Shown here: piece by piece, positions 32,474 through 34,412 of the stretch
Numbering within the stretch: the stretch's first letter is position 1
How the letters are laid out: every line of letters begins with the position of its first letter
Source of the DNA: Cryptosporangium minutisporangium
GTDB lineage: Bacteria > Actinomycetota > Actinomycetes > Mycobacteriales > Cryptosporangiaceae
Length of the DNA: 64,000 bases
Direction: 5' to 3'
NCBI RefSeq assembly: GCF_039536245.1
Contig: NZ_BAAAYN010000017.1
Coordinates: 567,302-631,301 of the forward strand
Notes under the pieces: generated by a model
What the model was told of the DNA's origin: nothing
The model's input: the letters and a program-made list of their open reading frames with translations, nothing else
The model's database searches: none
Program-made: the position numbers and the translations under genes

Positions 32474-34099
32474 TCAGAACGGCCAGGTGGCGTTCCGTCC
32501 GGCCTCGAGGAGCGGGATCATCCGGAACGCCGCGTCGGAGAGGCCACCGAACGTGTGCCGGTTGTCCGCGCCGGACGGGCCGTGTCCGTACCGGTAACCG
32601 GCGAGGTTCCAGGTGTAGACCGGCACGTCCGCCGGCACCGCGCTGGTCGGATCCGCACCGCGATACCCGCCCCACACCTGCTCGTCGGTCACGATCACGA
32701 CCCGATCGTGCATCCGGTAGTGCTTCCGCACGGCGTCCGCCGTGTTCGTGCCGCCCAACCCGCCGAACCGCTCGAGCATCCGGAGTACCGACGTGCCGCG
32801 CGGCAGCCGCAGCTCCCGCGAGTTGGTGCCGAACTCCACCAGCGTCGCCTGCTCCGCCCGGACCGCGAGCGCGGTTCCGAACAGCGCCGCCGCGTCCGCA
32901 CGGGTCAGCTCGGACCGGGCCGACAGCGGGCCGAACATCGACCCGGACCGGTCGACTAGGACCAACGTCCGGCCGGACAGCGCCGGCACGTTCGCGAGGC
33001 TGGACGCCAGCGCGCTCTCCAGGGCGTGGCCCCACCGCAGCGACGGCGCGGCCCGGTACGCGGAGAGGAATCGCATCGGCAGCTGCCGGGACTTCGCGAC
33101 CTGCGCCGGATCCGCCAGCCGTGCCGCCACCGTGGCGGCGACGTCGTCCGGCACCCCGGCCTCGTCGAAGTTCCGCAGGTTACGCAGCAGCGCCATGTAT
33201 CCCATCGTCGGAATCAGCGACGTCCAGGCCGCGGCGTCCAGCGGACCCTGCAGCCAGCCGGCGACCGACTCCCACGTCATGCCGGCCGCACGCAGCCGCT
33301 CCGGGTCGAGCGCCGCGCGCCGCTCGTCCAGCGGCAGTGCAGTCAGCGCCGCCCGTGCCCGCAGCACGGTCAGCTCCTCCGGGAGCGGGTTCGGCCGGTC
33401 GTGACGACGATCGATCGCGTGCCGGAACAGCGCAGCCTGCCACGCTGAATTCTTTTCGACCGGCTCCCGCCGCGGTCGCGGAACCTGCGTCGATGCCGGA
33501 GGCTGAAAAGAGTTCAGTGCGCGGGGCGACGGGTGGGTCAGCTCCAGGACGTCGCCGAACCGGAAGCCGCGGCTGTCCGCGTCGTACTTGAGCAGCGACC
33601 GCTCGTCGTACAGACGGGAAGCAGCATCGGCGATGCCGCGCTTCACCGGCTTCGGGATCGACCGGCCGTACCGGGAGGTCCAGTAGGCCAGCAGCTCGCC
33701 CGGCTCGTCGGCACGCTGGAGCACCGACGCGACGACCTGGCGGGTCATCCCCGCCTCCCGCCGCTGGATCCGCTCGGCCGCGAAGGCCGCCGCGCCCACG
33801 AGCGACGCCGAGCGCATCGCAGCCGGGCCACGGAGCCAACCGAGGAACCGGGCGGTCCAGTCCGGGTCGGCGGTGGTCGCGGCGCGAACGAGCCGCTCGT
33901 ACCGGTCGTCGCGCTTCGCTCCGGTCTCGTAGAAGGTGTCCTCACCGACCATGTTCGCGACGGCCAGCAGGAAGAGCTCGGACTTGAGGTCCCGCGCGTA
34001 GCCGGGGCCACCCTCGTGGGTGAGCCCGGACGCGGTCGCCGCGCTGGTGATCGGCGAACCGGTGGCCGGCCGCACGGCACCGCGGTTGAACTTGGACAT
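32474..34099 (-). CDS. rsr: TROVE-domain protein, bacterial Ro60 (Rsr) homologue
   Basis: 541 residues. A TROVE HEAT-repeat ring (about 1-340; SELFLLAVANMVGEDTFYE, RFLGWLRGPAAMRSAS, FRFGDVLELTHPSPRA, LRNLRNFDEAGV) is followed by a vWA domain with an intact MIDAS (VLVDRSGSM, TNTADAV, VIVTDEQ). Ro60 rings bind misfolded RNA ends and Y RNAs and work with exonucleases. The Y RNA gene lies 26 bp upstream, which fits. The ATG at 34099 has GGAGG upstream. Odd point: residues 195-218 (LNSFQPP to EPVEKNS) are encoded by a dispersed palindromic element inserted between THPSPRA and AWQAALFRHAIDRRH, sequences contiguous in typical Ro60. Confidence 0.92.
   Translation of the reverse strand: MSKFNRGAVRPATGSPITSAATASGLTHEGGPGYARDLKSELFLLAVANMVGEDTFYETGAKRDDRYERLVRAATTADPDWTARFLGWLRGPAAMRSASLVGAAAFAAERIQRREAGMTRQVVASVLQRADEPGELLAYWTSRYGRSIPKPVKRGIADAASRLYDERSLLKYDADSRGFRFGDVLELTHPSPRALNSFQPPASTQVPRPRREPVEKNSAWQAALFRHAIDRRHDRPNPLPEELTVLRARAALTALPLDERRAALDPERLRAAGMTWESVAGWLQGPLDAAAWTSLIPTMGYMALLRNLRNFDEAGVPDDVAATVAARLADPAQVAKSRQLPMRFLSAYRAAPSLRWGHALESALASSLANVPALSGRTLVLVDRSGSMFGPLSARSELTRADAAALFGTALAVRAEQATLVEFGTNSRELRLPRGTSVLRMLERFGGLGGTNTADAVRKHYRMHDRVVIVTDEQVWGGYRGADPTSAVPADVPVYTWNLAGYRYGHGPSGADNRHTFGGLSDAAFRMIPLLEAGRNATWPF
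33446..33517 (-). repeat. Palindromic dispersed element, copy A (in frame inside the TROVE gene)
   Basis: 72 bp with nearly matching ends: CTGAACTCTTTTC at one side and GAAAAGAATTCAG at the other (12 of 13 bases complementary). It adds 24 codons in frame. Aligned without gaps to copy B at 45238-45310 in opposite plus-strand orientation; by eye about 75 percent identical, with the outer 13-20 bases almost invariant. Both strands of the element encode N-S-F near one end and E-K-N/S-S near the other. Confidence 0.85.
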
Positions 34100-34125: not shown

Positions 34126-34311
34126 GGGAGGCGAACCACACAGCGGAGCCCGACCGAGATCAAATCGCACAAGGTACGAAGATGCTCTACCGAATTGAGC
34201 TACAACACCCGAAGGTGCAGACCGGATTCGAACCGATAACCATCCCATTATCAGTGGAAGTAACCCTGCACTGCGCACCGGACGGGCACCGCTGTGTAGT
34301 TCGCGCCTCCC
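34126..34311 (-). ncRNA. yrlA: Bacterial Y RNA (Yrl) with circularly permuted tRNA module
   Basis: About 186 nt. The two ends (34311-34279 and 34156-34126) pair over about 29 base pairs, with one 2-nt bulge after GGGAGGCG and two U-U mismatches, forming the Y RNA stem. Inside, in 5'-3' order: an anticodon-like arm UUCCA-CUGAUAA-UGGGA (34259-34243), a 5-nt variable loop, a T arm AUCGG-UUCGAAU-CCGGU (34237-34221), an acceptor-like stem closed by a UUCG tetraloop (34220-34203), U8-A9, then a D arm GCUC-AAUUCGGUA-GAGC (34200-34184). That is a tRNA cut in the anticodon side and rejoined through the acceptor end, as established for YrlA RNAs. It lies directly upstream of the Ro60 homologue. Confidence 0.9.
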
Positions 34312-34323
34312 GAGATCACAGTT

Positions 34324-34394
34324 GACCGCGGCATTGCGAGAATTGAACTCGCAGGCCCGATGTGGACCTCTTACCAGGAGAAGTAGCCGTGGTC
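34324..34394 (-). ncRNA. Second tRNA-like element upstream of the Y RNA
   Basis: 71 nt closed by a 9-base stem GACCACGGC/GCCGCGGTC with one mismatch. It holds a canonical T arm GCGAG-UUCAAUU-CUCGC (34352-34336) and a second arm UUCUC-CUGGUAA-GAGGU (34382-34366) whose loop could be read as a D-loop with its GG or as a Thr anticodon loop (CU-GGU-AA). It cannot fold as a complete tRNA: there is one arm too few and extra bases between T arm and stem. It may be a degenerate tRNA, a second Y-type RNA or part of the Y RNA precursor. Confidence 0.5.
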
Positions 34395-34396
34395 TT

Positions 34397-34412
34397 CGCA
34401 CCGGGAGGTGCG
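34397..34412 (-). terminator. Small hairpin after the hemerythrin gene
   Basis: Perfect 6-base arms CGCACC/GGTGCG around TCCC, 49 bases after the stop codon of the hemerythrin gene and immediately before the second tRNA-like element. It could be a terminator or the capped end of that RNA. Confidence 0.4.

Follow-up and report, generated by a model that had tools for sequence, protein, structure and literature searches.

A bacterial Y RNA with a permuted tRNA-like domain and a predicted intact anticodon arm upstream of a Ro60 gene in Cryptosporangium minutisporangium

We analysed a 64,000-nucleotide stretch of Cryptosporangium minutisporangium DNA (contig NZ_BAAAYN010000017.1, positions 567,302 to 631,301; hereafter the window), in which two tandem Y RNA genes precede a Ro60 gene on the minus strand. 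The RNA nearer the gene, Y RNA 2, carries a tRNA-like domain in circularly permuted order, and its tRNA is opened between positions 28 and 29, a break that falls within the 5' strand of the anticodon stem. Comparison with related sequences demonstrated its predicted secondary structure, a tertiary pair between positions 15 and 48, an intact 7-nt anticodon loop and a link with genes for TROVE-domain (Ro60) proteins. Taken jointly, this architecture and a function as a Ro60 tether are very probably correct for Y RNA 2. We regard it as a likely variant of the bacterial Y RNAs, set apart by its intact anticodon arm from YrlA as described in PMC8394870 and in Rfam. Its parts are as follows (tRNA numbering; primed positions follow the D arm).

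34126..34311, minus strand: Y RNA 2 with its extended basal stem, from the minimum free energy (MFE) fold, a sub-cut-off match to the Rfam YrlA model and our covariance model R1
34279..34286, minus strand: lower Y stem, 5' strand, paired with 34156-34149 and extending outward to 34311/34126
34272..34278, minus strand: internal loop GUGCGCA, opposite 34166-34157 (...UUGAUCU), the presumed Ro60-binding side
34264..34271, minus strand: upper Y stem, 5' strand, paired with 34174-34167
34245..34257, minus strand: inner part of the anticodon arm, CCA CUGAUAA UGG (29-31, loop 32-38, 39-41), with GAU at 34252-34250
34243..34244, minus strand: positions 42-43, paired with 27'-28' at 34182-34181
34221..34237, minus strand: T arm (49-65), with 100% of alignment cells paired and double changes in 3/5 pairs
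34203..34220, minus strand: acceptor stem with a UUCG loop (66-72 / 1-7) and no CCA end, from covariation
34184..34202, minus strand: U8, A9 and the D arm (8-25), with GG in the D loop and 99% of cells paired
34181..34182, minus strand: 27'-28' after the D arm, giving the outer two anticodon-stem pairs

Read from 34311 to 34126 on the minus strand, the RNA folded at -93.5 kcal/mol (z = -6.45), and none of 200 shuffled sequences folded as well. The original prediction, made from the sequence alone, had its ends paired over about 29 bp; they pair over about 26-29 bp, of which the outermost 7 bp are ambiguous because Y RNA 1 shares GGGAGGC as part of its own 3' strand. Between the two strands, the arms follow in the order originally predicted: an anticodon hairpin (UUCCA-CUGAUAA-UGGGA), a variable segment (UGGUU), a T arm (AUCGG-UUCGAAU-CCGGU), an acceptor hairpin (CUGCACC-UUCG-GGUGUUG), UA and a D arm (GCUC-AAUUCGGUA-GAGC). 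Y RNA 2 thus has the long stem formed from both RNA ends and the conserved internal-loop site by which Y RNAs are recognised, as well as the permuted order of T arm, acceptor hairpin and D arm that marks bacterial Y RNAs with a tRNA-like domain. The T and D loops hold the target U of TruB and DusA, tRNA enzymes that modify YrlA.

Relatives were collected with the window TROVE protein as the query, which yielded 73 actinobacterial loci and 49 viral contigs. The main covariation alignment contained 28 RNAs, and the R1 model was built from the same 28. Its 38 pairs were formed in 94.3% of alignment cells, and 29 of the 38 showed double-sided changes, the compensatory signal that the original prediction had called for. 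The covariation score was 0.516, and slid versions scored no more than 0.114; the related sequences are not independent, and the slid control covers kinship only in part. Double changes were found in 5 of the 8 lower Y-stem pairs (95% of cells paired), 7 of the 8 upper Y-stem pairs (87%) and 6 of the 7 acceptor-stem pairs (92%). The internal-loop columns GUGCG and UCUCGG were invariant or nearly so, and this conserved loop is presumed to face Ro60. R1 scored Y RNA 2 at 126 bits over 34286-34148, the window copy being one of the 28 sequences that built the model. The pairing, which was expected to persist in close species, is kept in another genome of the genus, where compensatory changes are seen.

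Two architectures were found in the collected loci. The split form, represented by about 17-20 RNAs, resembles YrlA in that 39-43 are paired with the strand following the D arm; in the hairpin form, the anticodon arm is intact. A strict hairpin rule, under which the three inner anticodon pairs had to be present, selected 40 RNAs from 36 loci, the window included, and a second set consisted of 25 RNAs of hairpin length for which pairing was not a selection criterion. Among these 25 RNAs, 30-40 was paired in all (16 GC, 9 CG) and 31-39 in 24, whereas the split-form pairs 30'-40 and 31'-39 were formed in only 5 and 11, respectively. The outer pairs 27'-43 and 28'-42 were each present in 25/25 of this set and in 39/40 of the strict set, where all were Watson-Crick. 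With two stem pairs supplied by the post-D-arm strand and three by the Y-stem strand, the Y stem enters at 28/29, and with the inner and outer pairs so provided the anticodon arm is whole. The original prediction had the tRNA rejoined at its acceptor end and opened near the anticodon; the permutation was borne out, but the break lies within the stem and not at the anticodon.

RNAalifold, run unaided, also chose the hairpin, yet it assigned the UU of ACUUC to 42-43. The pairs so formed never showed a double-sided change, whereas those of 27'-28' with 42-43 did. In viral copies outside the model, 27'-43, 28'-42 and the Levitt pair 15-48 (4 AU and 4 GC) were each present in 8/8; these eight, which do not include L154 (a copy of the Nonomuraea locus L022 and the one viral locus known to derive from a bacterial one by copying), were not screened for near-copies of bacterial loci. 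Across the 40 strict hairpin RNAs, 15-48 was A-U or G-C in 39 (A15 in the window copy), and the 7-nt loop kept U33 in 38, a purine at 37 in all 40 and A38 in 39.

These data bear on the strongest alternative, that Y RNA 2 is an ordinary YrlA-type RNA with a split anticodon stem and an incidental 7-nt-loop hairpin; such an RNA would have no anticodon function and would link Ro60 to PNPase or tRNA-modifying enzymes. Kinship with YrlA, part of the original prediction, is indicated by an Rfam YrlA match to 34267-34153 on the minus strand (E 6e-5), the GGGAUG of the window could alternatively pair with CAUCUU, split-type RNAs occupy the same loci, and the outer two stem pairs are common to both forms. 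However, the match scored 36.3 bits, about half the gathering score of 69, and Rfam at gathering detected no Y RNA, YrlA included, in 19 related actinobacterial loci. The GC/CG swaps in the inner hairpin pairs, the rarity of the split pairs and the conserved loop residues also speak against this explanation, which we consider unlikely.

Salmonella YrlA (RF02553; crystal structure PDB 6CU1) resembles Y RNA 2 in its location beside the Ro60/Rsr gene, its long Y stem and its permuted T arm, acceptor hairpin and D arm, which give an L-shaped tRNA mimic. As described in PMC8394870, its mimicry is confined to the D, T and acceptor arms, and in the Rfam consensus the join between Y stem and tRNA-like domain is a split anticodon stem. 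In Y RNA 2, unlike YrlA, the anticodon arm forms a full hairpin whose loop has the canonical 7 nt, the Y stem entering between 28 and 29. The hairpin class lacks the split stem and has only the 27'-28' pairs in common with it.

The link with Ro60 was examined at the locus and across genomes. Two further features of the window are involved.

32474..34099, minus strand: TROVE/Ro60 (Rsr) gene, with its ATG at 34099
34304..34409, minus strand: Y RNA 1, which was not in the original prediction, with a Y stem, a hairpin and a T arm (34352-34336) but no permuted D arm

The protein product contains the TROVE Pfam domain (E 1e-13, 51.7 bits, above cut-off) and a VWA_2 match (7e-5, below the Pfam cut-off), the TROVE plus vWA combination of a Ro60 protein, and PDB TROVE chains matched it at E 2e-29. 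Y RNA 2 ends 27 nt upstream of the TROVE start codon. R1 matches were found upstream of TROVE and on the same strand in essentially all 73 relatives, with one to five Y RNAs per locus, in agreement with the predicted association of an unannotated Y RNA with a Ro60 homologue. Among 395 genomes of the class, 49 had a full-length R1 match (E<=1e-12) and all 49 carried TROVE, which was present in 54 of the 395 (Fisher 3e-57). Y RNA 1 scored 52 bits with R1 (E 1e-10) and folded with an MFE of -47 (z -3.56); its T arm is perfect, and it is conserved in the same-genus genome.

The same-strand position so close to the start codon would also fit a cis-acting leader of the ro60 mRNA, either an attenuator or a structure masking the ribosome-binding site, and in some relatives a strong, terminator-like hairpin at the same pre-TROVE place overlaps the Shine-Dalgarno sequence (z < -2 in 15/66). 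A leader would not need conserved tRNA tertiary features, however, and the Y RNAs are repeated within loci and also occur away from TROVE, so that we judge this explanation very improbable. Examples of the latter are L147 1837-1693 (minus strand) and L150 1885-2042, from two TROVE genomes of one genus, where the Y RNAs are flanked by metK-like and priA-like genes, as judged from open reading frames only. In the window, CCUCCG...CGGAGG within 34131-34099 could mask the TROVE Shine-Dalgarno sequence. A promoter and terminator scan of the region found no promoter, and the sole terminator-like site was inside the RNA.

The anticodon and the body of the tRNA-like domain were then considered separately. 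The genome's own tRNA-Ile(GAU) has an identical CUGAUAA loop, in line with the original prediction, and the un-permuted window copy reads as tRNA-Ile(GAU); its body, though, is closest to the genome's tRNA-Asn. Positions 34-36 were near random in the 40 hairpin RNAs (GAU, GUU, CUC, CAU, CCU, UCU and others), and tRNA-Ile is not the identity of the RNA because the triplet is not conserved. Isotype mimicry as a strict rule was ruled out, since the anticodons differ among the RNAs and agree with the body in only some of them; a Glu-like body carried CUC in 6/14 cases versus 0/27 (p 7e-4, hand-tallied counts).

That Y RNA 2 is a real or degenerate tRNA-Ile gene is hardly credible: Rfam tRNA matched 34272-34213 at 27 bits and some relatives are called tRNA-Ile, -SeC, -Glu or -Arg, but the score is below the tRNA cut-off, the order acceptor, D, anticodon, T, acceptor and the free 3' CCA of a tRNA gene are absent, the D arm follows the acceptor stem in a permuted order that relatives conserve, and ARAGORN called 0/40 tRNAs in native order and 40/40 after un-permutation (the latter partly by construction).

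ARAGORN called no tRNA on the window copy, so the expectation that tRNA callers would miss the RNA held for the window but not for relatives and phages, where such RNAs have been named tRNA-SeC, -Arg, -Ile and -Glu. It named Y RNAs tRNA-SeC at L015 2450-2522, tRNA-Glu at L031 2413-2484 and tRNA-Ile at L071 12-79; therefore, Y RNAs can create false tRNA annotations, selenocysteine tRNA included. The core of R1 also matched tandem tRNA-Asn genes with a 4-nt spacer at 60 bits. Because such a pair gives the same local order and matches the core, these results suggest that the permuted domain arose from a tandem tRNA-Asn pair. Two Streptomyces R1 matches lacking a Y stem were examined and rejected as Y RNAs, both being tandem tRNA-Asn pairs.

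We propose a mechanism in which the locus would provide two tandem Y RNAs together with their partner Ro60 protein. The long hairpin of Y RNA 2 would form a handle, its internal loop expected in the Ro60 ring, and the far end would be a complete tRNA cloverleaf with a tetraloop-closed acceptor end, the handle being inserted at 28/29 as a three-way junction. Lacking a free acceptor end, Y RNA 2 cannot be charged or take part in translation. From known Ro60 and Y RNA biology, we infer that the handle binds Ro60 and that the tRNA end brings in a second, tRNA-recognising partner. Where tRNAs are damaged and repaired, the anticodon arm may serve as decoy or bait for enzymes that read anticodon loops, chiefly anticodon nucleases, a possibility that we put forward tentatively. 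Somewhat more doubtful is its extension to the whole Ro60-bound class in actinobacteria and phages, which would then be a panel of whole-tRNA decoys or baits, constant in the geometry of the anticodon loop but with rapidly varying anticodons, directed against anticodon nucleases and tied to repair of tRNAs (RtcB, RNA ligase) and to their replacement (tRNA arrays).

Both the neighbouring genes and the induction of a Salmonella operon suggest an involvement in tRNA damage. The Y RNAs and TROVE of the Acidimicrobiia loci L070, L076 and L082 are immediately preceded by arrays (~1-2850) of about 9-13 tRNA genes, within which sits a gene for the RtcB ligase, and in actinophages tRNA arrays or an RNA ligase flank Ro60. 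The Salmonella rsr-yrlBA-rtcBA operon likewise brings Ro60, Y RNAs and RtcB together; its inducers are tRNAs cleaved in the anticodon loop, and its authors proposed that YrlA competitively inhibits the nuclease (PMC7790460). At the window locus, no RtcB turned up among the immediate neighbours inspected. For a decoy or bait, an anticodon loop that is intact and variable would be more suitable than the YrlA form, and YrlA is uninformative about enzymes that read the anticodon arm because it lacks that arm. In Streptomyces phage Kela (L207 2229-2981), an annotated RNA ligase gene lies about 20 nt upstream of a Ro60-like gene.

Several observations weigh against the proposed structure and role. 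The tRNA fold is absent from the nearest-neighbour MFE structure of the window copy (composite -32.6 versus MFE -47.0). Nearest-neighbour energies omit tertiary contacts; MFE folding was set aside as an uninformative test, and the tRNA fold of the window copy rests on covariation because the free-energy fold alone does not give it. The anticodon loop of the sister species has 9 nt, not 7. RtcB was near TROVE in only 6/73 loci. The SOS anticodon nuclease does not cleave Salmonella YrlA (PMC7790460). Finally, because the anticodon triplets vary widely, no single nuclease target is indicated.

The tethering function is transferred from Salmonella and from Deinococcus radiodurans, whose Rsr-Y RNA-PNPase complex (RYPER), in which a Y RNA tethers the Ro60 orthologue to PNPase, served as the model (cited in PMC8394870 and PMC7790460). 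Unlike RYPER, whose partner is PNPase, the effector end of Y RNA 2 would be a whole tRNA mimic. Circular permutation of the tRNA order is also known from permuted tRNA genes and viral tRNA-like structures; unlike the product of a permuted tRNA gene, Y RNA 2 is never restored to a real tRNA, its acceptor end being closed by a loop. The intact-arm class addresses the question of what the tRNA-like end does in bacterial Y RNAs. As a conserved class with strands joined from both sides of the handle, it opens the decoy idea of PMC7790460 to direct testing, and with R1 a covariance model is available for the family, which Rfam 15 misses at its cut-off.

TROVE was carried by 61 phage records. R1 matched Xanthomonas phage Olaya (E 2e-22) and Rhizobium phage Y65 (E 7e-19), whose TROVE proteins were only about 30-37% identical over the matched part. 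A DNA similarity search against phages returned short T/D-arm matches only. Some tRNA annotations in phage genomes are explained as Y RNAs: beside Ro60, the GenBank tRNA-Arg(tct) of Gordonia phage VanLee (L204 2704-2775) and tRNA-Arg(cct) of Streptomyces phage GiJojo (L203 2769-2843) are parts of Y RNAs, scoring 117 and 52 bits with the model, respectively. Rhizobium phage RHph_Y65 (L213) has an array of at least 5 Y RNAs, and at ~1280-1420 of this locus a Y stem appears to hold a tRNA-Arg-like domain in normal order. The window's own genome contains arrays of tRNA-like genes, about 21 at C8:80326-82943 and about 8 at C6:281017-281627, many of them with low tRNA scores.
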